The notes under the pieces were generated by a model that worked only from the letters and a program-made list of their open reading frames with translations, was not told the DNA's origin and ran no database searches. A DNA stretch of 64,000 nucleotides, taken from NCBI GenBank assembly GCA_018396725.1, contig JAGTRC010000002.1, positions 1 to 64,000 on the forward strand, written 5' to 3'. A program made the position numbers and the translations under genes. The stretch is from Candidatus Bathyarchaeota archaeon. Lineage in GTDB: Archaea > Thermoproteota > Bathyarchaeia > 40CM-2-53-6 > DTGE01. Positions 7,807 through 23,507 of this stretch are shown piece after piece; position 1 is the first letter of the stretch, and every line of letters starts with the position of its first letter.

Positions 7807-8783
7807 TGAGCTACGAAGCACAACTTGATGAATTCTTCGGGGATGCAAAAAACAGGAGCTACGCAGCCAGCATAATTAACAAGCTCACTGCACAGCATAA
7901 GCATGGCTTAATCGCGGAAATAAGGGATAGAGGCCAGGCTGAAATGGCCGATAGAATCCGCGAGATAGTTGAATACTTGGTTAATGATGCTATCAAGGGG
8001 AGGCGATATACCAGTTCCGTGCTACCTACGATAGTATCGCCACAACTAGCACCGAACTTCTGGTTTAAAAACGAGAAAAAACCAACCAGAGAGGAAGTCT
8101 ACCGGCTGCTTCACCTGATCCTGACCGGCCTTTATAGAGGCAGCTATGTAGTTAACTTGGACAACGCAAAGCCTACTCTTAGAGAAGATTTCAGAAAGTC
8201 TCTCATCCAAGAGAATATACTCATATTCCCAGAAGGGGGTGTAGGGGGAGGGGTCAACATAAAGAAAATATTCACGCAACTAAATTTAGCCAGGTTCCCC
8301 GTCGTAGAGTTCGGCTTTACCCTCTTAATTTTATCATGTTTCGTTAAATGGTTAAAAAATAAGGTAGAAAAGCCCGAATTCCTGAAAAGGGTAGAAGAAA
8401 TGGGCCTCCCCCAAATCATATCTGACATAGGGGTCGACGATTCGTTGTCGTTGGTATTTTTTAACATCCCTAGGCAGAAGAAGGAGATGCACATCTTTCC
8501 TCGCCTCAAAGATTTCATAGCTAGATGGTACCACGACTTTCTAACCGGAGCAGAAGACATTGACTTACTACTCTTCTTATCCTCATTATATATAGTGGAC
8601 GAGAATTTCAAAGAAATCTCCGATGCGGTCATGAATAAATTCATCTACTACCTCTTGAGAGGTCACATCAACGGCGAACTCCTAGTAGATATGATCAACA
8701 TTAAAATCAAACATGAGTTGGAAGAAAGGAGAAGGGGCATATATCCTATACAGAGAGTAAGGGAGATCCTACGTAGAATCTAA
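7806..8783 (+). CDS. Putative compact Cas8-type large subunit
   Basis: 325 residues; no motif can be recognised by eye. The gene begins inside the cas3 stop codon and is last in the operon, exactly where cas8a2 (Csa4) lies in type I-A operons, and its length is near that of Csa4 (~350) but well below I-B Cas8b (~500-600). Large subunits diverge very fast, so lack of recognisable motifs is expected. A large subunit would recognise the PAM and connect Cascade to Cas3. Its 3' end overlaps that of cas6 by 15 bp, tail to tail. An unrelated accessory protein is the alternative. Confidence 0.5.
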   Translation: MSYEAQLDEFFGDAKNRSYAASIINKLTAQHKHGLIAEIRDRGQAEMADRIREIVEYLVNDAIKGRRYTSSVLPTIVSPQLAPNFWFKNEKKPTREEVYRLLHLILTGLYRGSYVVNLDNAKPTLREDFRKSLIQENILIFPEGGVGGGVNIKKIFTQLNLARFPVVEFGFTLLILSCFVKWLKNKVEKPEFLKRVEEMGLPQIISDIGVDDSLSLVFFNIPRQKKEMHIFPRLKDFIARWYHDFLTGAEDIDLLLFLSSLYIVDENFKEISDAVMNKFIYYLLRGHINGELLVDMINIKIKHELEERRRGIYPIQRVREILRRI

Positions 8784-9593
8784 TCCAGGCTTCGCGCCTC
8801 TTCCACTCCAGTATCTCGTTACGCCGAATCCCCCCGTGCGGTTCCCTCCGATGTTGGAGTATTCCGCGTACCTCGCCAGGGTCGCCGTCACCCTGCTCCA
8901 CCGATCCCTCTTCTTCATCTCGTATACAGCCCATCCCGTGAACCCCGTGGCCTTCTTCTCCCTCATGTATGCCATCCTCGTCTCCAATCGGTGCTGGCTG
9001 ACCCCCATGTTCCTGTGGAGCCACTCCTTATACTCTTCAAGCTCTTCCCCAGTGAACCTTTCATCGTCGGAGAAATGGTTCCATATCCTCAGAAGGTTTG
9101 GGAATATCCTCTCGTGGTCCGGGAAAAGATAATGGTACTCCGTGCCCGAGGCGGAGAGGTACGTGGGTGTCATAAAGTATAGCTTGAAGGATTCCCCGTG
9201 GTCCCCGCCGGACTCCCACAGCTCCCTGTAGCTCGTGGATCTGAGCCTCATGGAGGCCACGTGGAACGGCTCCTCGAATAACAGGATCTCGCCCCTACCC
9301 TGAAAGTACTTGAGGAGCTTCTCCATCAACCCGTCCTGGAGGAACCTGAAGCACACCCTGCATGGATACGCAGGGTCCATCAGGTATCCTTCTTTAAGCT
9401 TCTCCCTGGCCTTGAACCTTAATGGGGTGACCGAGTAGGGCTTAGGCTTATCCGCCTCGTGCATGGAGGCCGAGAGGCGGGGATCCACCGTCTTGAATAT
9501 GTGGAGGAGCAGGCCCCTGGAGACGTAGCCCGTATAGGAGGGCAGGGTCACGGGCCTCTCCCCGTAGAGCTCCAAGCCCACCTCGACGGGCAT
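8769..9593 (-). CDS. cas6: Cas6 crRNA-processing endoribonuclease
   Basis: 274 residues from ATG 9593. The glycine-rich loop near the C-terminus, GGNRTGGFGVTRY (about residues 248-260), is the hallmark of Cas6 RAMP nucleases, and the overall length fits. Cas6 cuts pre-crRNA within the repeat to make crRNA for type I and often type III complexes, so it may serve both effectors here. It is convergent with the type I operon and has its own promoter region at ~9.6-9.7 kb. The catalytic histidine cannot be fixed without an alignment. No repeat array to process is present in the window. Confidence 0.85.
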   Translation of the reverse strand: MPVEVGLELYGERPVTLPSYTGYVSRGLLLHIFKTVDPRLSASMHEADKPKPYSVTPLRFKAREKLKEGYLMDPAYPCRVCFRFLQDGLMEKLLKYFQGRGEILLFEEPFHVASMRLRSTSYRELWESGGDHGESFKLYFMTPTYLSASGTEYHYLFPDHERIFPNLLRIWNHFSDDERFTGEELEEYKEWLHRNMGVSQHRLETRMAYMREKKATGFTGWAVYEMKKRDRWSRVTATLARYAEYSNIGGNRTGGFGVTRYWSGRGAKPGLDST

Positions 9594-9802: not shown

Positions 9803-10210
9803 TCATCCGCTCCGTTGGAGCGTTTCCCTGAGGGCGTTTATGATCCATTCATCTCCTGCGAGCAGCTTACCGTATTTCACGGCTTCCATGATTATCCTCC
9901 TCTTCTCCTCGGCCATCTTTAGAAGTTCCATGGTGGTGTATACTCTGGGCTGGACCTCTATCGGCAGCGTCGGATCCATGAACTCCTTCATCCTATCCAT
10001 GGGGTTCTCAGGCGCCTCATCGAATACTATGAGGACGTCCGCATCCGAGAACGCTGTGTAGTCTCCTCTAGCCAGGGATCCTATCAGGATCACCGCCTTG
10101 ACGCCCCTAGCCACGGCCTTCTCAGCGTATTCCCTAACCCTCTCCAAGACCTCCTCATAGTTCAGCTTAAAGAACCTTACTTCTGCAGTATTCCGCGATC
10201 TCCTCCGCAT
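9803..10210 (-). CDS. MNT-type minimal nucleotidyltransferase (antitoxin)
   Basis: About 135 residues from ATG 10210. The nucleotidyltransferase signature GSLARGDYTAFSDADVLI gives the GS and DxD elements that bind nucleotide and metal. It overlaps the end of the HEPN gene upstream by 44 nt. In HEPN-MNT (HepT-MntA) pairs the MNT protein AMPylates a tyrosine of the HEPN RNase and so silences it. The true start is uncertain; several in-frame starts lie upstream, all within the HEPN gene. This pair has the order HEPN then MNT. Confidence 0.82.
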   Translation of the reverse strand: MRRRSRNTAEVRFFKLNYEEVLERVREYAEKAVARGVKAVILIGSLARGDYTAFSDADVLIVFDEAPENPMDRMKEFMDPTLPIEVQPRVYTTMELLKMAEEKRRIIMEAVKYGKLLAGDEWIINALRETLQRSG

Positions 10211-10556
10211 ATCTGACGGCCCTCCTCGCATCCTCCCTACTGTAATAATCGAGGGGCGCGCCTTCGGGGTGGAAGTTCGGATATCTCGTCGGGATGTAAT
10301 GCCTGTCAAGCTCCTTGGCCTTGTCTATCAGCTCCCCCGAGGGCTTATGCCCGCCTGGGAGGGCCTCCAGCATATGTGAGATCGAATAGCCCCAAACCTC
10401 GACGCCCAACCTTTGATATAGAGCCTTAACGACCTTTTCAGCGCCCTGCTGTGCGGCGAAGCAGGCCCACTCGTAATCGCCGAGCTCCAGGGACCTCTTA
10501 GCATGCTCCAAATCCTTTAAGCCCTGCCTCAACCAGTCCTCAGCTCTAGAAACCAC
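10167..10556 (-). CDS. HEPN-domain toxin
   Basis: 129 residues from GTG 10556, preceded by GGGGAG. The sequence AEDWLRQGLKDLEHAKRSLE, then WACFAAQQGAEKVVKALYQ, is a typical HEPN four-helix start. The C-terminal part has DRHYIPTRYPN, the same block as in the HEPN protein at 49.6-50.0 kb. HEPN proteins of this type are RNases with an RxxxxH-like site or are regulated by tyrosine AMPylation. A longer reading frame to 10691 exists, but the extra arginine-rich residues do not look like the family. It is paired with the MNT gene downstream. Confidence 0.8.
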   Translation of the reverse strand: MVSRAEDWLRQGLKDLEHAKRSLELGDYEWACFAAQQGAEKVVKALYQRLGVEVWGYSISHMLEALPGGHKPSGELIDKAKELDRHYIPTRYPNFHPEGAPLDYYSREDARRAVRYAEEIAEYCRSKVL

Positions 10557-11244
10557 GGCTCCCCGGCGCCCTCCCCGCCTCCCCTTCAGTAAAGTCCTGC
10601 GGCTCGCCGGATGTATGATCGGCAACTCCGCCTTAAAAGTTATCTCCTCACGTATCGGCCTCCCCCGCCGATAATGTTCCAGGCTCATCATCCCCGAGTA
10701 TTGGCGGAATCCCCAGGCTAAACCTCCTCCAAAGCCGTCCAGCTTCAGAAGCCCTCCTTACAGGAGGATGGAGCGGATCCACCGCCCTTGAGGCATCGCC
10801 GCCTTGGAGGCCCTCTCATATCCCTCCCCAGCCGGGTAACCCCAATCCCATGGTCCTCCAAGCCCGGCCTCCATGGGCCGACCCGCCCAAAAACCTTTTT
10901 AGCCTGACACCTCTAAATCCAATGGTGAACCATCCCTCAGCCGAGGTTGAGGGCTTTCCCGCGAGGTCCCCGATAAATTGTCCGACATGGCTGAGGAAGA
11001 AGGGATCGGATTTATCGCCGCCGGATTCAAAGATGAAAATCACAGGATTCCACCCCGGACACTTCACACCGTCCCGCACGATTCCAGTGCGGGAATCGTG
11101 GACGGCGAAGAACGAGAGGCGCGTATCAAGAACCCCGAGGGGAACCCAGCGTCTCCGCCTCAAACCCATCGGTAAACTCATCGCATGGCTTAAGCCTTGG
11201 ATGCGAGAAAGTGGTGGGGAGGCATCGGACAACTCATCGCCCCC
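10557..11244. other. Long non-coding stretch with interleaved inverted repeats
   Basis: No convincing gene is seen in this 688-nt stretch; the reading frames present are proline- and arginine-rich and look like chance. The only clear structure is at 11073-11100: CCCGCAC/GTGCGGG (11073-11079 with 11087-11093) overlaps CACGATTC/GAATCGTG (11077-11084 with 11093-11100), so the two hairpins exclude each other. A leader or decayed element is possible. Confidence 0.4.
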
Positions 11245-12718: not shown

Positions 12719-13156
12719 CTACTGTGCGGGGTATCCCAGCCTGGTCAACATGTGTCTAGCTAGGCTTAAAGCTTTTTCAGCGGCCTTCACCACTTTTTCA
12801 GCAGTTTCCCGATCGTATATCGCGCTTGGAGTTAAACGTTGCTCAAGCATGCCGTAGCTAGTTCTTCCATGCTCCGGCGCGAGCTCGTGGGTGATCGCCG
12901 CCAGCTCCCGGGCCTCCTCCTGTAGAGATGGGGGTAAACGGCCGCATATTTCCAGGAGCTCATCCGACGGATCGTGGCTCCAGCTTGGGATCATGAAGTA
13001 AGCTATCACCGCCTTAGCGGCGTTCTCCGCTGCGAGCTGGGATGCCTGCACGACTCCGACCCAGTCATCCACCCTCATCCTCTTCAACGCGGCCTGGAAA
13101 TGCTCCCTAGCCAAGCTTAACCTGTAAGCCACCTCTTCCAAAGGATCTATCTCCAA
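12719..13156 (-). CDS. HEPN-domain toxin (second pair)
   Basis: About 145 residues from TTG 13156, which has a GGAGG site seven bases upstream inside the end of the MNT gene. It is helix-rich, with REHFQAALKRMRVDDWVGVV, then QASQLAAENAAKAVIAYFM, the HEPN core. Unlike the first pair, the order here is MNT then HEPN, and the HEPN sequence is from a different subfamily. It is likely the RNase toxin partner of the nucleotidyltransferase at 13159-13626. Confidence 0.75.
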   Translation of the reverse strand: MEIDPLEEVAYRLSLAREHFQAALKRMRVDDWVGVVQASQLAAENAAKAVIAYFMIPSWSHDPSDELLEICGRLPPSLQEEARELAAITHELAPEHGRTSYGMLEQRLTPSAIYDRETAEKVVKAAEKALSLARHMLTRLGYPAQ

Positions 13157-13158
13157 AG

Positions 13159-13626
13159 CTAAGCCTCCACGATGGCCCCCGGCCTGGGAAGAACCCAATA
13201 ATAGAACCTGCCCCTCCTAACCCTCTTTAAACCCGTTTCAGCTAGTTTTCGCCGCGCCTCGGAGACGAAAGAGCCAAGCTTGTCATACTTATCGTATAAT
13301 ACGATGGCGTCGAAAATTATGTTTAAAAACAATGGATTAACCTTCTTCAAGTTGATGAATCGAGCGTACTCTACATCTAAAACCGTTAAACCCTTATCCA
13401 CCTTAAAATAACGTGAAGCCAACTCATAAAACATAATGTACCTTTCCCGCAGCGGCAAATCGACATCCTCCCAGAGGATGAGAAGGTCTAAATCGCTGCG
13501 GCCGTCCGACTCCCCCCTGGCCGCGGAGCCGAACAGGATCAACCCCGCCACAAAGGGGTTTTCACGTCCCATCCTCATGGCGGATGAGGAGAGCAACTTA
13601 AGCAGTTCTACATCCTCAGCTTTCAA
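13159..13626 (-). CDS. MNT-type nucleotidyltransferase (second pair)
   Basis: 155 residues from TTG 13626. The signature LILFGSAARGESDGRSDLDLLILWED contains the GS and DLD elements of MNT nucleotidyltransferases. The C-terminal ~60 residues (VNPLFLNIIFDAIVLYDK, then a basic tail) resemble the MNT of the third pair at 49.2 kb. It is translationally linked to the HEPN gene (3 nt gap) and probably neutralises it by AMPylation, as is known for MntA-HepT. The ATG at 13629 region is out of frame, so TTG is the likely start. Confidence 0.8.
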   Translation of the reverse strand: MKAEDVELLKLLSSSAMRMGRENPFVAGLILFGSAARGESDGRSDLDLLILWEDVDLPLRERYIMFYELASRYFKVDKGLTVLDVEYARFINLKKVNPLFLNIIFDAIVLYDKYDKLGSFVSEARRKLAETGLKRVRRGRFYYWVLPRPGAIVEA

Positions 13627-14257: not shown

Positions 14258-14277
14258 CTTACTTACTTACTTACTTA
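14258..14277. repeat. (CTTA)5 tetranucleotide repeat at the PIN stop codon
   Basis: Five perfect copies of CTTA at 14258-14277. On the minus strand this is a TAAG repeat that begins with the stop codon of the PIN gene (14271-14273). Length changes here would not alter the protein. Confidence 0.8.
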
Positions 14278-14795
14278 TTCTTTCCCAGCTTCTCTATGTT
14301 TTCCATAATTTTCGCGTAGGTTTCAACACTGCATCTCCACCCAGCGAAAACCATGTCTTTTATAGCTCGCTTCACATCTTCCTTTGCGACGAGTCCTTGG
14401 AAAAACGCTTTGAACGAGATGTATGGGGTTCCTGCGTAGGCTATCCCGTAGATTTTAGCTGTCTTTCTCGCAACCTCGTCGTCGATTATGGCTACTCCGT
14501 CACGCTCTTTCGCTATGGCTAAAACCTCAGCGTCAACTACATGAAGCCCCTTCGTCTGCAAAAGAGCCTCCAGAAAACTTGTATCTCCAGGTTTTACAAC
14601 TTTGAGAACATCCTTTTGAAATAACCCTTCTAAAACCATGGCATCTGCGATGACCTTGCGCTTGCCTTCATCCACAACCTCACGTTTAACACTTGGGGAA
14701 GTTAACTTCTCTCCCTTTAACTCTCCAAAAATTCTGCTCAGCCCAATCTTCGCTATATAAATTAACGGAGTTGAATTAAACACAAGCGGCTTCAT
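14271..14795 (-). CDS. PIN-domain toxin (DUF3368 type)
   Basis: 174 residues. MKPLVFNSTPLIYIAKIG carries the N-terminal motif (N, S/T, P) of DUF3368 PIN proteins, and VVDAEVLAIAKERDGVAIIDDEVARK supplies the central acidic residues (DAE, DD). PIN toxins are metal-dependent RNases. It starts 2 nt after the stop of the UPF0175 gene, its expected antitoxin, so the two form an operon. The gene ends in a run of TAAG repeats. It appears intact. Confidence 0.85.
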   Translation of the reverse strand: MKPLVFNSTPLIYIAKIGLSRIFGELKGEKLTSPSVKREVVDEGKRKVIADAMVLEGLFQKDVLKVVKPGDTSFLEALLQTKGLHVVDAEVLAIAKERDGVAIIDDEVARKTAKIYGIAYAGTPYISFKAFFQGLVAKEDVKRAIKDMVFAGWRCSVETYAKIMENIEKLGKNK

Positions 14796-14797
14796 CT

Positions 14798-15130
14798 CTA
14801 CTCCGCCGCAGACGCCTCCTTAAACTCCCTCTCAATCTCCTCAGGCGAATACCTAACCCATTCAACATTGCACTGCTTTACTAAATCAGCGAACTCCCAA
14901 AGAGGAAGCTTAGCCATTTCAGCAGCCTTAGCGAAGGTTACCTTCCCGTCACGCAGCATTTCTAAGGCTGTCTGCTTACGCCATTCGCTAATGCCCAACT
15001 CGAGGAGAGTTCTAACGGCCGTAGCCTTATCTAAACCCTCCCGCTCGATAACTTCTCGAATTTCCCTCTCAATTTCCTCAGGGATCCTTACGGCTAGGGG
15101 CTTAAGAGTCAACTCCGTCACCGTAAACAA
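14798..15130 (-). CDS. UPF0175 antitoxin
   Basis: 110 residues. LAVRIPEEIEREIREVIERE (ribbon-helix-helix-like N-terminus), then ALEMLRDGKVTFAKAAEMAKLPLWEFADLV, is the diagnostic UPF0175 helix pair. UPF0175 proteins are antitoxins coupled to DUF3368 PIN toxins, exactly as here with the PIN gene directly downstream. The upstream region 15131-15247 is short and would hold the promoter, where antitoxin and complex usually act as repressors. Confidence 0.85.
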   Translation of the reverse strand: MFTVTELTLKPLAVRIPEEIEREIREVIEREGLDKATAVRTLLELGISEWRKQTALEMLRDGKVTFAKAAEMAKLPLWEFADLVKQCNVEWVRYSPEEIEREFKEASAAE

Positions 15131-15247: not shown

Positions 15248-16495
15248 TTATTCAAGGCCTTTAAAGCAGAACTTCCATAGTGGAACTAAATATATGGAGT
15301 CTACCCTGCCCTCAACATCTTTTGTTATGACATAGCCCCTTTCAGCATTATATTTCTTTATGAAGAACTCGATCCAGCGCAGGTCTTCCTTTTCGATTTT
15401 CCCCTTAAGCTTCACCTCTATTGGAGTTAGATCCCTCAGGAAATCAACTTCTTTCCCCCCATCCCGCCAGTAATGACTGGCATTCAACTCGAACAACACC
15501 AGGTTCTCTGCGAAACGCTCTTCGGGGACTCTGAAGGGCAGCGTCAAGCAGGGATGATAAGGGTAAATCCTCGCCAGTTTCCTTGAGGCTGCCCTGATCG
15601 AAGGCCTGTAATTCAATATTTTCCTGATTAATAGCGAAAATTCGAGGTAGAAAATGGCCTTGTACAACGTCAGCTTAGCCCGCTTCAACTCCTTTGCAAG
15701 CTCGTCTAGCCGTAAGTATTGCCCCGGATTTGTTAAGAATATGTTAACGAGCTTTTCGAGTAGAAGAATGTCCACCTCTTTGAACTCCTTTGGGATATCC
15801 TTCAGGAGGATCGGCTCGATGACGGAGCCTCTAATATAGTTGTTAATGAAGTTGACGTCCTGTTCATGGATTAGCTCTGGAAAAGTCCTTATCAAAAATT
15901 TAGTAAATTCCTTCTCTAAGAGATCCCTATGAAGCAGGAACCGCCTATCATCGATGCGTATTCCCTTTAGGCGTAAAAACTCTCCAAAGCTTAAGGGTTT
16001 CAACTCATAATAGATGGCCCTCCCCGCTAGGCTCCTCTTAGCCTCGGATAATATGTTGAGTGAAGCTGAGCCGGAGACCAAGATCTTTATGTTACGCAGA
16101 TTATCGTAGATCAGCTTTACATCGGCAACCCAGTCTCTAGCTTTTTGAGCCTCATCCAGAAACAGGTAGATCCTTTCCCTTTTATAGTCCACATCCGTTA
16201 ACCTCGAATATTCCTTCAATAATTCATCGATCCTCCTCTCCTGCAGCTCGGGTTCATCGAAGTTGCAGTAGATTACGTGGAGCGGGGAGATCCCACCCCT
16301 GATTAAGTCGTCTATAAGCTGGTAGAACATGGTCGATTTGCCAACCCTTCTTAGGCCTATAAGAACTTGGATCTGTCTCCTATACAAATCGTTTTTAATG
16401 GATGCGTATAGGTCTCTGTAAGTCGGAGGCACGAACTCCTTTCTAACAGCTTCTTCAATCCACCAATGATTCAGCTCTTCGAGGTTCATATACAT
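15248..16495 (-). CDS. ATPase of the DUF4143/archaeal AAA type (first copy)
   Basis: 415 residues from ATG 16495 (or ATG 16489). Walker A GLRRVGKST lies near residue 47, Walker B LFLDEAQK near 117, and the sensor region NIKILVSGSASLNIL follows. The C-terminal part has the DUF4143-type nuclease-like fold, with AENLVLFELN and EVDFLRDLTPIEVKLK (E-VDF...EVK), which resembles a restriction-like active site. Such proteins are common in archaea and their role is unknown; defence or toxin-antitoxin functions have been suggested. It is related in layout to the gene at 19.7 kb but not nearly identical. Two palindromes lie immediately upstream. Confidence 0.85.
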   Translation of the reverse strand: MYMNLEELNHWWIEEAVRKEFVPPTYRDLYASIKNDLYRRQIQVLIGLRRVGKSTMFYQLIDDLIRGGISPLHVIYCNFDEPELQERRIDELLKEYSRLTDVDYKRERIYLFLDEAQKARDWVADVKLIYDNLRNIKILVSGSASLNILSEAKRSLAGRAIYYELKPLSFGEFLRLKGIRIDDRRFLLHRDLLEKEFTKFLIRTFPELIHEQDVNFINNYIRGSVIEPILLKDIPKEFKEVDILLLEKLVNIFLTNPGQYLRLDELAKELKRAKLTLYKAIFYLEFSLLIRKILNYRPSIRAASRKLARIYPYHPCLTLPFRVPEERFAENLVLFELNASHYWRDGGKEVDFLRDLTPIEVKLKGKIEKEDLRWIEFFIKKYNAERGYVITKDVEGRVDSIYLVPLWKFCFKGLE

Positions 16496-16499
16496 CCAA

Positions 16500-16556
16500 T
16501 ATTCGTTTTCTAATGAAACGAATACTTAACTCTTTTGTTTCCAAAAAATACGAATA
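16500..16556 (-). promoter_or_regulatory. Tandem palindromes around the promoter of the first DUF4143 ATPase
   Basis: TATTCGTTT (16500-16508) and AAACGAATA (16516-16524) form a perfect 9-bp inverted repeat, ending 5 bp before ATG 16495. An imperfect second copy lies at 16532-16556 (TTTTGTTT, then ATACGAATA), offset by 32 bp. Between the copies the minus strand reads AGTTAAGTA, a TATA-like element. This resembles an autoregulatory operator pair flanking a promoter. Confidence 0.6.
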
Positions 16557-16701
16557 ACAAAGAGCCCCAACCGATCAGAGATCCCACCTAAGAAGACGAT
16601 GAGATCAAAATCGTAACAACGTTTATAGCATCAGATGCCCAAGAAAGCTTCTTAAAGGTATAAGGGATCGTCCAGGCTTTCCCAGCCATACATGTGCTTC
16701 C

Positions 16702-17565
16702 TCATAGCCTCCCCATCTTCTCTAGGGTGCTGACCGCGTAGAAGGTGTCCTCGAAAGTGGATATTCCCAAGCTCGATCTGGCGAATCCCCCGTTGGAGTT
16801 CCGGCAGCCATGGATGAACTCAGCCGTCTCCTCCGGGAACCCCGGATCCTCCCCCATCAACTCCAGGAGGGATACCCCGTAGTATACGTGCTCCATGTAT
16901 ACGCCGTAGCTTCGGGGCGTGGCCGTGTAGCCTCCGCTGGGCCTCTCGCAGGCCCTGACGAAGCTGAGCGTCTCCCTGAGGGATCCAACCGGGAAGCCCA
17001 GCCTGTCCAGGGAGGCCACCGCGTGGTAGGTCGCGTTCAGGTTCGAGTACCGGTGGATCCCGAAGCCTCCGTCCCTGTTCTTAAACCTTAAGAGCCAGCC
17101 TATGAGCCTCTCCCGGTCCAACTCTACGCCGGCCAACCCGGCGAGCTCCACCACCATATACACGGGATGGAGCTCCGAGGCCGCCTCCACATATACGTCT
17201 TCGACCCTGAACTCCCCGTGGACGATCGGGAGCGAACCGATGAAGCCTCTAAGCCCCTCGACGTCCGGCTCCTCCCCGCAGATCCTCAGGGCCTTAGCCA
17301 CGTAATAACTCGAGTATAAATCGTATTCCTTGAAGCCTCGAAGCCACCCCACAGTCTCCTCGATATTGGGCGGGGGCACACCTAGAAGATCCAGGATGGC
17401 TAATCCATAATAGGTGTCTTGGACGTTGGATTCGAGGCCCTGGCAGAAGGCGTAGCCCCCATCCATGTTCCGGCGGTCCAAAACGTAGCGGGCGACGCCT
17501 CCAATCCATGAAGACCCTAAGGGTAACCCCTTCACCAAACGGCTGAGCCGCCCGTTCCCCTGCAA
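16702..17565 (-). CDS. Prenyltransferase/squalene-cyclase-type alpha-toroid repeat protein
   Basis: 287 residues. Repeats of the prenyltransferase/squalene oxidase kind occur: RNMDGGYAFCQG, RFKNRDGGFGIHRY, ERPSGGYTATPRSYG and RNSNGGFARS, with TYHAVASLDRLGF-type helices between. The fold is an alpha-alpha barrel as in protein prenyltransferase beta subunits and terpene cyclases. Metal ligands for prenyltransferase activity (D, C, H) and the cyclase DxDD motif are not clear, so the activity is unknown. It has no signal peptide, and no partner subunit gene is next to it. Confidence 0.75.
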   Translation of the reverse strand: MQGNGRLSRLVKGLPLGSSWIGGVARYVLDRRNMDGGYAFCQGLESNVQDTYYGLAILDLLGVPPPNIEETVGWLRGFKEYDLYSSYYVAKALRICGEEPDVEGLRGFIGSLPIVHGEFRVEDVYVEAASELHPVYMVVELAGLAGVELDRERLIGWLLRFKNRDGGFGIHRYSNLNATYHAVASLDRLGFPVGSLRETLSFVRACERPSGGYTATPRSYGVYMEHVYYGVSLLELMGEDPGFPEETAEFIHGCRNSNGGFARSSLGISTFEDTFYAVSTLEKMGRL

Positions 17566-17700
17566 ATCCGCATCAACCCCGCCGCCTCAACTGGGCCCTT
17601 CCAAGTGGAGTAGAAGCTATCAGCCCCCGCGGATCCCCGGCAGGGACGGTTAAAGGCGAGCTTCATCGCCTACAGTAACAGTCGTAAAGTGGGACACAGC

Positions 17701-17912
17701 AGATATAAACTTTTATTGGGCGCCTAGAATCCTACATGAAATTTTTAGTGGTTTAGGGGGTGTCCTGGGTTCGGGGCCCTGCACCTTTTCGAAGCGTCTA
17801 ACCTTACTATAGGGTTCCACTAGGCCCTCCAACCCTCGGTTGGGGGTGAGGCCCTGGGGTTCCCGCGCGGATGTGTATTCCATGGAGACTTTCGATGCGG
17901 CCCCTTTTTTTA
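17701..17912 (+). ncRNA. Possible structured small RNA in a 340-nt gap
   Basis: The gap 17566-17909 has no gene. On the plus strand a strong TATA-like element (GATATAAACTTTTAT, 17701-17716) precedes ~180 nt of GC-rich sequence with hairpins, the clearest being CTCCAACC-CTC-GGTTGGGG near 17836-17855, itself flanked by GGCC on each side. It ends in CCCCTTTTTTT at 17902-17911, like an archaeal terminator. No tRNA, SRP RNA or RNase P RNA signature was found. The TATA element could instead serve the minus-strand gene at 17565. Confidence 0.3.
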
Positions 17913-19232
17913 GATGGCCGGCTTCTCCTCCACGTTTATCGTCTTGGCTCTGCGGCGTCGTAGGAGTGTGATGGCCGCCGCTGAGGCCGCTGCGATTCCC
18001 CCGAGGCCTCCAGCGAGGAGCCTTGCATCCAACCCGAGTACGGTCGGGTGGAGGGGTACATCCCTCCCCTCGCTGATCGCTATCCTCGCCTGCTTCATGT
18101 ACCGGTCAGCGTATGGATGTCCCGGATAGAGCTCCATCACAATCCTGTACTTCTCCAACGCGGCGGAGTAGTGATCCTCCCAGAAGAGGTTCATCCCCTC
18201 CTCCCAGTACCTGTCCAGTTCGCCGCGTGCCGGTTGGATGTTCGCCTCCCTAACGAACTCCTTCGCGACGTTTATTGGGACGAGGAATCCTATATCCGAT
18301 AATTCCTCTCCGCTGCCGCCCACCGCTCCGAAAGTTGCCAGGCCTATAACCTCGCCCTTATCGTTGAAGGCGGGGCCGCCGCTGTTCCCGTGGTGTATGG
18401 AGGCATCCGTCTGTATAGCCTTCCATTGGCCGGGCATCTCCTTGAGGGAGCTTATGATCCCCGACGTCACGGTCGCCTCAAGATACGCGGTGACCTCCTT
18501 CACATAGGTCTGCATCCCCGGGTATCCGATTACAAAGGCGTGTTGGCCTACAGCAACCTTGTCCGAGTCGCCGAGGACCACCGTGGGGAGAGGGAAGTCC
18601 ACGTTAACCTTCAAGACGGCCACATCCTTCTGAGTGCCCCCTACGCATTGCCCCGCCGCTCGAGTCTCGGCGATGAGCCCCCTAGGGGTGATCCCCTGCA
18701 CCCACTCCACGGTCCCCAACAAGACTACGAGGCTGAGCTGTTCAGGGCTGAATTTTCCATGGGTCCAATAGAACATGACCCTACTCATAACGTAGTATGG
18801 TGCCAGCTGCTGCGCGAAATCTCCCTTAGCCACATGCTGCATCGCGTCTTTCTGGGCCAGCTGGAATATGAACTGATACTTTGTCAGTTCAGCGGTTCCG
18901 ACGTGGGCGTTCGTCAAGATATAGCCGTCAGGAGTTATGATCAGGCCTGAGCCGCTCCACCCCGCCTTCACATCCTCCGTGAAGACCCCCTTCTCCGGAT
19001 GGGCCTCAAACGTGAACATGGGCTCCCCAGTCTTCGGGTTCTGCTCCATACTATAGTACGCGTAGGGATACGAGAAAACCGCCTCATACCTCCCGAAGAT
19101 GCATACCGTGGCAGGCGCATATAACGCTGATATCCTCTCACCCACCGGCGGCTCCGCAGCTTTTAACATGGGCGTCGCAGAAGCCAACCAGCAGAGTAAA
19201 GCCGCAACTAATACCAGCGGGTTAACCTTCAA
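17910..19232 (-). CDS. Secreted, membrane-anchored trypsin-like (S1C/DegP-type) serine protease
   Basis: 440 residues. A signal peptide (LVLVAALLCWLASATPML, 6-23) leads. The catalytic triad is visible as TNAH (histidine), DVAVLKV (aspartate) and HHGNSGGPAF (serine). About 100 residues without PDZ signature follow, including a TPR-like pair (WEEGMNLFWEDHYSAALEKY). A C-terminal transmembrane helix (LLAGGLGGIAAASAAAITLL) ends in RRRR. It is predicted to sit outside the cell, held by the C-terminal anchor. A 65-residue insertion with KDAMQHVAKGDFAQQL lies between H and D. Its promoter carries a palindrome at 19294-19317. Confidence 0.85.
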   Translation of the reverse strand: MKVNPLVLVAALLCWLASATPMLKAAEPPVGERISALYAPATVCIFGRYEAVFSYPYAYYSMEQNPKTGEPMFTFEAHPEKGVFTEDVKAGWSGSGLIITPDGYILTNAHVGTAELTKYQFIFQLAQKDAMQHVAKGDFAQQLAPYYVMSRVMFYWTHGKFSPEQLSLVVLLGTVEWVQGITPRGLIAETRAAGQCVGGTQKDVAVLKVNVDFPLPTVVLGDSDKVAVGQHAFVIGYPGMQTYVKEVTAYLEATVTSGIISSLKEMPGQWKAIQTDASIHHGNSGGPAFNDKGEVIGLATFGAVGGSGEELSDIGFLVPINVAKEFVREANIQPARGELDRYWEEGMNLFWEDHYSAALEKYRIVMELYPGHPYADRYMKQARIAISEGRDVPLHPTVLGLDARLLAGGLGGIAAASAAAITLLRRRRAKTINVEEKPAI

Positions 19233-19293
19233 AAAGCTTCGAAGCCTCCAACTCTATTTTTTAAGCAAACCTGTTCTTAAAGCGAGTATTATT

Positions 19294-19317
19294 CAAAGAT
19301 ATGCATATAAATCTTTG
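19294..19317 (-). promoter_or_regulatory. Palindrome over the TATA box of the protease gene
   Basis: CAAAGAT (19294-19300) and ATCTTTG (19311-19317) form a perfect 7-bp inverted repeat around ATGCATATAA. On the minus strand the centre reads TTTATATGCAT, a TATA box ~60-75 nt before the protease start at 19232. A bound protein would block the promoter. Confidence 0.4.
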
Positions 19318-19603
19318 CGGCAGCGCGTGGATGGAGCGGGTATTCCTGGATGCCCCAGCGCATCTAGAGGCGAAGACCCCCCGAATAAATTATTGGTGAA
19401 GTGAATAAGCCGTGGAGAAAACACTTTATTAGAGCGGGGAACGCGTAGATGTCTGAGTGGATCTATGGCGGATAGCCGGGATCTCCCCCATCGATCCATC
19501 TCCGTCCATTGGCGTAGGGGAAACTGAGTTTAAGCCGTAGAAACATCATGTGGCCGCTTCTAAAGGTTAATTATTTTAATTTTTGGTTATTCCACCCTGG
19601 GGC

Positions 19604-19661
19604 TTATTGGTATTCTAAATACCAATAATTATTTAAGTAGTTGGTATTCTAAATACCAAGC
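19604..19661 (+). promoter_or_regulatory. Tandem palindromes around the promoter of the second DUF4143 ATPase
   Basis: The 19-bp palindrome TTGGTATT-CTA-AATACCAA occurs twice, at 19607-19625 and 19641-19659. The first extends to 25 bp (19604-19628). Copies are offset by 34 bp, and the second ends two bases before ATG 19662. TTATTTAAGTA between them (19629-19640) fits a TATA box for a leaderless transcript. The rest of the gap 19233-19603 shows no gene. Confidence 0.7.
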
Positions 19662-20981
19662 ATGGAGAAAGTTAACCCCTGGTGGAGAGGAAGGGAGGGA
19701 ATAGAGGAAGACGAGGATTACATTAGGTGGAAGGAGAGCAAAATAAGATGGGATCCCCCCCTCCTGGAGAAGATCGAGCTGAAGCCATTCTCCCTGAGTT
19801 TCCTGTTCGGCCCCCGGCAAATAGGCAAGACCACGCTGGTGAAGCTGCTGATAAAGAAGCTTCTACAGGAGGCGGATCCAAAATCAATATTTTACTATAG
19901 ATGCGACAAACTAACCGACTTCAAGGAGCTGGACGAGAAAATAGGGGAATACCTGAGGATAAAAAAGGTGGAAGGGATAGGGGCCTCCTACATCTTCCTG
20001 GATGAGGTCACGTTCCCGAAGGAGTGGTTCAGGGCTGTAAAGTACAGGATAGACGTGGGAGATTTGAAGAGGGACGCCCTTTTCCTCGCGGGTTCCCTGA
20101 GCATGTTCGCTAAGGGGGAGGTGGAGACCTTCCCGGGGAGGAGGGGGTTCGGCGGAGACTTCGTCCTTCACCCGGTGAGCTTTAGAGAATTCATAAAAAT
20201 ATCAAATCCACCGCTCCATGAGAAACTAGTGAAGATCCAGGGGTTCTCCCCGAAGGAGATAAGGGAGAGATGCGGCAAGCTGCTCCCCTGGCTCCCCGAG
20301 CTCAACGAAGCCCTCGCATCATACCTGAGCTGCGGGGGGTTCCCCCTCTCCATAAAATCCCTCCTGGAAAAAGGAAAAGTCTCCCAGGAGGCGAAGGACA
20401 GCTACCTCTCCGCCTTCCTATACGACCTCATGAAACTGAAGAGGAACGAGGCAATAGCCAAACGCGTGTTAAAAGCCATAATCGAAAAGGCTCCATCAAG
20501 CATAAGCCTGAACAGCGTCGCAAAAGAATTCGAGATAAGATCCCATAAGACAGTCTTCTACTACCTCGACCTCTTCGAGAAGCTCTTCATAGCGAAGAAC
20601 GTTTACTTCATCGAGCCCAACAAGAACATCGAAGTCTTCTCCAAGGAGAGGAAAGTCCACCTAACCGATCCCTTCCTCTACCACGTATTCTCAGACTGGT
20701 GCTCCACGAGGATCCCTGAAGAACCAGTGATCATCGAAAGCGTGGTCGCCTCCCACCTCGCCAGGAAGCTCAGGATCGGCTACTGGAAAAACAACTTCGA
20801 AATCGACATAGTCCTCCCCGAGAAACTGGTCGGGTTCGAAGTGAAATGGAGGAGGAAAGCTGAACCTAAAATGAGGAGGGTGGGAAAGTACAGGGACATA
20901 ATCTACCTGACCAGGGAGGAGTTCAACGACGATCCAGTCGCAGTCCCCGCCAGCGCATTCCTCGGCTGCTTGGAGGTATGA
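19662..20981 (+). CDS. ATPase of the DUF4143/archaeal AAA type (second copy)
   Basis: 439 residues. Walker A is FGPRQIGKTTLVKLL (about residues 50-64), Walker B IFLDEVTFPKEW, then ALFLAGSLSMFAKG and GRRGFGGDFVLHPVSFREF. A winged-helix-like part follows (SISLNSVAKEFEIRSHKTVFYYLDL). A C-terminal DUF4143-type region has VESVVASHLARKL-like helix, EIDIVLPEKLVGFEVKWR, with the E-D-EVK residues of a restriction-like fold. Its function is unknown. Its ATG sits directly after the second palindrome, so translation and transcription could both be controlled there. It is convergent with the DUF3006 gene. Confidence 0.85.
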   Translation: MEKVNPWWRGREGIEEDEDYIRWKESKIRWDPPLLEKIELKPFSLSFLFGPRQIGKTTLVKLLIKKLLQEADPKSIFYYRCDKLTDFKELDEKIGEYLRIKKVEGIGASYIFLDEVTFPKEWFRAVKYRIDVGDLKRDALFLAGSLSMFAKGEVETFPGRRGFGGDFVLHPVSFREFIKISNPPLHEKLVKIQGFSPKEIRERCGKLLPWLPELNEALASYLSCGGFPLSIKSLLEKGKVSQEAKDSYLSAFLYDLMKLKRNEAIAKRVLKAIIEKAPSSISLNSVAKEFEIRSHKTVFYYLDLFEKLFIAKNVYFIEPNKNIEVFSKERKVHLTDPFLYHVFSDWCSTRIPEEPVIIESVVASHLARKLRIGYWKNNFEIDIVLPEKLVGFEVKWRRKAEPKMRRVGKYRDIIYLTREEFNDDPVAVPASAFLGCLEV

Positions 20982-22857: not shown

Positions 22858-23091
22858 ATGGCTAGGGTTAAGATAACTAGGAACTTCCAGGTCACCATAC
22901 CCGCCCAGGTGAGAAATAAGCTGGGCCTGAGGGAGGGGGAGGAGGTCGAGGTCCGCCTAGACCAGGAGGGCCGGATCCTCATCGAGAGGCTGCCCAGGGG
23001 GAGGCGTACCTTGAAGGCGGGGAGAAGACTCCTACCGGAGGAGATAGAGGAGATAATAAGGAAAGGCCTGGCGGAGAGCATCGAGGGATGA
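22858..23091 (+). CDS. vapB: AbrB/SpoVT-type VapB antitoxin
   Basis: 77 residues. ARVKITRNFQVTIPAQVRNK, LGLREGEEVEVRL and DQEGRILIERL form the swapped-hairpin AbrB DNA-binding domain in the first 50 residues. The C-terminal ~25 residues (LLPEEIEEIIRKGLAESIEG) would wrap around the toxin. The stop overlaps the start of the PIN gene (23088-23091, ATGA), typical of vapBC operons. The antitoxin both inhibits VapC and represses its own promoter. Confidence 0.9.
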   Translation: MARVKITRNFQVTIPAQVRNKLGLREGEEVEVRLDQEGRILIERLPRGRRTLKAGRRLLPEEIEEIIRKGLAESIEG

Positions 23092-23507
23092 AGGCCGTAT
23101 TGGATACGAACATACTCATCTACGACAGCTTTGAGGACAGCGCCTTCCACATGGAGGCCCGAAGGCTCCTAGATGAGCTTGAGGAATGGGTGATCCCCTC
23201 CATAGTTGTCCATGAATACGTCTGGTTCATGAAGGGCCTAGGCGTAGATATAAAGGACGTCCTCGAGAAAGTTAAGGAGTACCTCCTCCACGTTAAAGGG
23301 TTCCTAGCCTCCGAGGAGGAGGGCGATATCGTCAGATCCCTGGGGATGGTCTACTCCGAGGGCTTATCCCTATCAAAGTTTAACGATAAACTCATCTTAA
23401 CGATAGCTTTAAGGGAGAAGATCCCGATAGCCACCTTCGACGCGAAGCTCAGAGGGCAAGCCCTTAGAAAAGGCTTAGCCACTTTGCCGCCCCCATCCCT
23501 CGATTAG
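23088..23507 (+). CDS. vapC: VapC PIN-domain RNase toxin
   Basis: 139 residues. MKAVLDTNILIYDSFEDS gives the first aspartate (LDTN), IPSIVVHEYVWF the glutamate, and the third part SLSKFNDKLILTIALREKIPIATFDAKLR the remaining acids (ND, FD). All the residues expected for a metal-dependent PIN RNase are present, so the toxin looks active. The family usually cleaves tRNA or rRNA. It is coupled by a four-base overlap to vapB. Confidence 0.9.
   Translation: MKAVLDTNILIYDSFEDSAFHMEARRLLDELEEWVIPSIVVHEYVWFMKGLGVDIKDVLEKVKEYLLHVKGFLASEEEGDIVRSLGMVYSEGLSLSKFNDKLILTIALREKIPIATFDAKLRGQALRKGLATLPPPSLD

Follow-up and report, generated by a model that had tools for sequence, protein, structure and literature searches.

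In type II toxin-antitoxin and restriction-controller systems, a potentially harmful module is kept low by a component that binds palindromes in its own promoter. Among archaeal regulators, Ss-LrpB and Lrs14 achieve autoregulation through palindromic, regularly spaced sites in their own control regions, and Lrs14 acts by blocking TBP/TFB (PMC2995911). PDC-S01 is a candidate defence family of PADLOC that combines AAA_14 and DUF4143 (COG1373), that is, an ATPase fused to PD-(D/E)XK; the accessible part of its description gives counts of 9,986 for archaea and 29,494 for bacteria, which make it the fourth most common (candidate) defence system (PMC12988326). That part of the source makes no mention of promoter architecture or DNA-binding specificity. 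The preliminary description of the DNA analysed here knew of no sequence-specific self-regulation in this ATPase family, and a full-text literature search for DUF4143 or COG1373 together with palindromes or regulation likewise found none.

Two genes of the family, here called ATPase A and ATPase B, lie in the window, the whole stretch of 64,000 nucleotides from a Candidatus Bathyarchaeota archaeon that was analysed (Table 1). Both encode an AAA_14 P-loop with Walker A and Walker B motifs (Pfam E 1e-33 and 2e-24), match the PADLOC PDC-S01 models (E 1e-51 and 1e-29) and end in a DUF4143 / PD-(D/E)XK domain with D...ExK, recognised from Pfam DUF4143 matches and conserved residues. In B numbering, G50, K56, D114 and E115 are invariant; across 63 homologues E393 is invariant as well, and E380, D382 and K395 are at least 90% conserved. 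Given the conservation of D382, E393 and K395, the ATPase-nuclease probably acts as an enzyme too, one that it would suit the cell to keep at a low level. Between the ATPase and the nuclease of B, AlphaFold places a winged helix (pLDDT 95.4) with helices at residues 263-276, 283-289 and 295-307, followed by a beta hairpin at 311-334 (strands 311-318 and 323-334).

Table 1. Positions of the two ATPase genes, their predicted operators and the protein segments discussed, in window coordinates.
Feature	Position	Strand	Description	Basis
ATPase A	15248..16495	-	415 aa: AAA_14, winged helix, DUF4143 / PD-(D/E)XK; ATG at 16495	Pfam, PADLOC PDC-S01, AlphaFold pLDDT 85
Recognition helix of A	15638..15676	-	residues 274-286, AKLT at start	AlphaFold
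Inner operator (predicted) of A	16500..16524		TATTCGTTT-7 nt-AAACGAATA; ends 4 nt 5' of ATG	
TTAAGTA (TATA-like) of A	16523..16529	-	edge of inner operator	
Outer operator (predicted) of A	16534..16556		imperfect, 74% to inner copy	
Outer operator (predicted) of B	19607..19625		19-bp perfect palindrome TTGGTATTCTAAATACCAA	
TATA-like box of B	19630..19637	+	TATTTAAG, between both operators	
Inner operator (predicted) of B	19641..19659		same letters as outer copy; ends 2 nt 5' of ATG	
ATPase B	19662..20981	+	439 aa: AAA_14 (46-177), winged helix, DUF4143 / PD-(D/E)XK; ATG at 19662	Pfam, PADLOC PDC-S01, AlphaFold pLDDT 95
Recognition helix of B	20544..20582	+	residues 295-307; S294 H295 K296 T297 at start	AlphaFold, covariation
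PD-(D/E)XK core of B	20799..20846	+	E380, D382, E393, K395	63 homologues

The preliminary description had claimed that each gene is preceded by two copies of a palindrome of its own, and the arrangement is present at both loci. In front of B, TTGGTATT-CTA-AATACCAA stands on the plus strand in two identical copies, 34 bp from start to start, and the arms of the outer copy extend to 11 bp (19604-19628). The two copies of A, before a gene on the minus strand, are 32 bp apart from start to start, the outer one being imperfect as described, and at both loci the inner palindrome ends within the claimed 2-5 bp of the start codon. The shared plan with different letters also holds, with half-sites (TATTCGTTT in A, TATTGGTAT in B) that are not maximally different. 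Two further claims stood in part. TTAAGTA, said to lie between the copies at both loci, does lie within the spacer of B, whereas at A its letters overlap with the margin of the inner palindrome; the motif is a variant of a TATA box rather than a conserved element, the consensus of the family spacer being TTTATAAA-like. The proposed placement on one DNA face is approximate only, as 33-34 bp correspond to about 3.1-3.2 turns.

The window ATPases are surrounded by toxin-antitoxin and defence-type genes. A UPF0175 / PIN-like (DUF3368) pair with a PADLOC PDC-S70 match (14271-15130, minus strand) adjoins ATPase A; two nucleotidyltransferase/HEPN pairs (9803-10691 and 12719-13626, both minus) and a Cas6 gene (8769-9593, minus) lie on one side, and a MazE-like/PIN pair (22858-23507, plus) on the other. 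A fluoride riboswitch (RF01734; 17604-17679, minus), scoring 42.4 bits and thus above the gathering score, stands upstream of a prenyltransferase-toroid-like open reading frame (16702-17565, minus), an unusual neighbour for a fluoride riboswitch.

Paired palindromes turn out to be far more general than the two loci of the preliminary description. Within the 320 nt that precede the Walker A codons, palindrome pairs with common half-sites were scored for two sets of family genes. In the first, with 134 genes from the phylum, the score lay above the 99th percentile of dinucleotide shuffles in 54%, as against 0% for coding stretches of the same genes, and the centres were 32-34 bp apart in 54 of 72 hits. 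The second set of 75 loci, gathered with organism names by a different search and drawn from many phyla of archaea and from some bacteria, gave 64% (coding stretches, 1.3%) and a spacing of 32-35 bp in 44 of 48 hits. With the sets pooled and the spacing limited to 31-35 bp, a score of at least 36 was reached by 146 of the 209 loci (70%), compared with 3.0% of dinucleotide shuffles and 3% of the starts of 196 other genes; the remaining promoters of the family, about 30%, fall under this threshold. At a score of at least 38, the contrast is 122 of 209 family promoters against 1% of those 196 starts (Fisher p 5e-43), and the two control promoters concerned are a missed member of the family (L157) and a spurious open reading frame in a repeat array (L193). 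Chance is therefore rejected as the origin of the paired palindromes, which stand before homologues across archaeal phyla at the same spacing.

Variant geometries accompany the usual one. Some subfamilies have a single long GGGAAACTTTTATATAAAAGTTTCCC-like palindrome instead of a pair, and one (L063, L075, L090, L083) carries GTGTGCATTAGTAATGCACA-like palindromes at 23 bp, which is 10 bp below the usual 33. In the sister family ATPase_2 (PF01637), two private palindromes often lie right beside the start codon, with a shorter spacing of about 15-20 bp; examples occur among L235-L248 (L242, L244, L246, L247 and L248, for instance) and in the window genome itself (C9, C10).

The layout of these promoters points to how the pair could function. 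Across 113 loci, a TATA-like box lies inside the spacer in 62%, compared with 19% of equal flanking stretches on either side, and the distance from the ATG to the inner dyad is most often 11-12 nt. It is proposed that the initial turn of the recognition helix would allow the protein, with its AAA+ ATPase, winged helix and PD-(D/E)XK nuclease, to bind both palindromes of its own promoter. These would flank the TATA box about three helical turns apart, the inner palindrome over the start site and the outer palindrome on the opposite side of that box. Once occupied by two dimers, or by one oligomer bridging them, they would exclude TBP/TFB and RNA polymerase, and the gene would be repressed; release may come with ATP or an infection signal. 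We infer direct binding, the stoichiometry of dimers, repression and such triggered release, and it is the order operator-TATA-operator-ATG that suggests repression rather than binding alone.

The same layout bears on whether self-binding might instead activate the gene, or regulate it in both directions depending on concentration, as for Ss-LrpB. In the Sulfolobales both copies precede the TATA box, the inner one abutting the BRE position, and the ATG follows about 30 nt further on; activation would fit this layout as well. Methanosarcina relatives (L176, L179, L184) have 3-4 tandem 34-bp operator-TATA units 5' of the gene, an arrangement that could likewise serve dual control. However, the start site itself lies under the inner operator in the window and in most other phyla, so that a bound protein should obstruct initiation, and activation or dual control instead of plain repression is unlikely. 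Private autorepression by the ATPase itself is the best explanation of the paired operators, and a likely one.

Among 113 non-redundant loci, the similarity of operators rises with protein identity, and in partial correlations controlling for the other domains the winged helix ranks first (0.11), followed by the ATPase (0.07), the lid (0.00) and the nuclease (-0.03). The profile of covariation by column peaks at B residues 290-302. For protein pairs of less than 35% identity, residues 294-297 are the best of 144 four-residue windows at marking a shared operator, with an excess of 1.40 against 0.83 for the next-best window, and permuting the operators within subfamilies gives p <= 2e-4. Further, 295 six-residue segments were compared blindly as nearest-neighbour predictors of the operator, with identity capped at 30%, 35% or 40%. 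Every one of the leading segments, five at the 35% and 40% caps and four at the 30% cap, overlaps residues 290-300 and outperforms similarity of the whole protein. These residues would form the first turn of the recognition helix, because the helix in the AlphaFold model of B spans 295-307. The identity caps and the permutation in subfamilies control for shared ancestry in part only. Position-wise mutual information with APC gave a map with too much noise to single out contacts; its best helix pair, which joins residue 295 to position 4 of the half-site, ranks only 10th.

The correspondence can be read directly from the residues and letters involved. SHKT goes with GGTATT in window ATPase B, in a 60%-identical Thermoproteota protein, and in a Woesearchaeon and ANME archaea at 34-40% identity. 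SH[IV]T goes with TTGATATT, SHNT with GTCAAT, SHHT with GGCAAT, SPHT with TTTGCAAT, SPNT with TTTTCAAT, D.KT with TGTGGA, and STRT with TTTAC in two distant subfamilies; AKLT of window ATPase A goes with TTCGTTT. Orthologues of B keep TTGGTAT/TTGATAT half-sites at 54-60% identity and have TTGTGGA at 43-46%. The idea that the palindromes vary together with the winged-helix part of each protein is thus borne out and, from residue windows and the blind scan alike, narrowed to its recognition helix. The predicted recognition of its own operator by the protein is strongly supported by this covariation. Operator and helix drift together, and each copy of the gene would therefore have a specificity of its own.

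Such privacy is also visible within genomes. All four DUF4143 genes of the 1.75-Mb window genome have paired palindromes, with differing letters; the two outside the window carry TTAGAGTTTAAGATTCTAA-gcatttataagcag-TTAGAGTTAAGAATTCTAA-TATG (C20) and TGGTTTATCTTACTTTACCT/AGGTTAATTATAGTTTACCT-atATG (C17). Elsewhere in this genome, no further site was found within 2 mismatches of the B palindrome or within 3 mismatches of the A palindrome. A DNA search of 398 genomes, blind to the proteins, returned five exact copies of the B palindrome: two at B, two before an orthologue and one inside an unrelated gene. The pair of the orthologue (MEKLNPWWKGKEAIEEDED...) stands 34 bp apart, directly 5' of its gene. 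In six Sulfolobales genomes, the TTGACTC operator (at most 1 mismatch) occurs only as a pair before the ATPase, in two of the six. Every operator tested is unique in its own genome, and the comparison of operators among copies in one genome covered 18 same-genome pairs. These observations weigh on the possibility that a separate transcription factor binds the palindromes, which would be the usual case for palindromic operators, commonly the sites of small HTH regulators. It is nevertheless very unlikely, since the operators are unique in the genome, differ among the ATPases within one genome and track the recognition helix of the ATPase better than its other parts.

The fold of the protein raises another possibility, namely that, in binding the palindromes, the ATPase serves an integrated element in an initiator-like or partition-like role. 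Inverted sites round an AT-rich stretch resemble the origin recognition boxes bound by Orc1/Cdc6, which likewise join AAA+ to a winged helix, and the nearest solved folds are indeed archaeal Orc2/Cdc6 (1w5t, 2qby). The overall similarity is low, however (TM 0.27-0.39), the protein ends in a nuclease, the inner site abuts the start codon and the spacer looks like a TATA box. Searches of the PDB by sequence returned nothing beyond designed repeat proteins and weak matches to ABC ATPases, and one with the family profile gave no match; Pfam found neither a Cdc6 domain nor Lrp-type DNA-binding and RAM domains in the window ATPases. No relatives were found in viral contigs and phages, and a search of plasmids gave two weak hits. 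A role as initiator or partition protein is accordingly highly improbable. Finally, although the palindromes could fold as RNA, an attenuator or structured leader is hardly credible, as the palindromes of leaderless genes stand at the start site or before it, both share one sequence at a fixed spacing for which hairpins have no need, an Rfam search at the palindromes gave no family, and covariation with a protein helix would not be expected of hairpins.

Overall, it is very probable that each protein of this family shuts down its own gene through a lock and key peculiar to it. A wider reading, less likely than not, can be offered only tentatively: in one of the commonest candidate defence families of prokaryotes, the nuclease-ATPases might be their own sequence-specific repressors, and a conformational change triggered by ATP or an invader might at once free the operators and arm the nuclease. 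The operator and the recognition helix would then co-diversify against cross-talk between copies, amounting to a natural protein-DNA recognition code, and the sister family ATPase_2 might do likewise with its 15-20-bp spacing.

There are tens of thousands of PDC-S01/DUF4143 proteins, without known function, and an operator private to each gene predicts a way in which their expression is kept low. The self-operator could serve as a DNA ligand for purification and structural work, and release from it as a direct assay for the trigger. Moreover, more than 100 natural helix-operator pairs with regularities constitute a dataset for winged-helix specificity and for the design of orthogonal archaeal gene switches.

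Compared with the systems described so far, the window ATPases share with Ss-LrpB and Lrs14 the palindromic, regularly spaced sites in the gene's own control region. Those proteins are small dedicated regulators, whereas here the presumed repressor is an ATPase-nuclease and each gene copy has a private operator. With Orc1/Cdc6, the best fold match in the PDB, they share an AAA+ module followed by a winged helix, but they differ in their low structural similarity, in the extra PD-(D/E)XK domain and in sites that lie at promoters beside the start codon. In contrast to type II toxin-antitoxin and restriction-controller systems, there is a single gene here, and the ATPase-nuclease itself is apparently the regulator. 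Autoregulation through spaced palindromes is thus known from archaeal regulators; what appears to be new is an autoregulator that is itself an ATPase-nuclease with a gene-specific operator.
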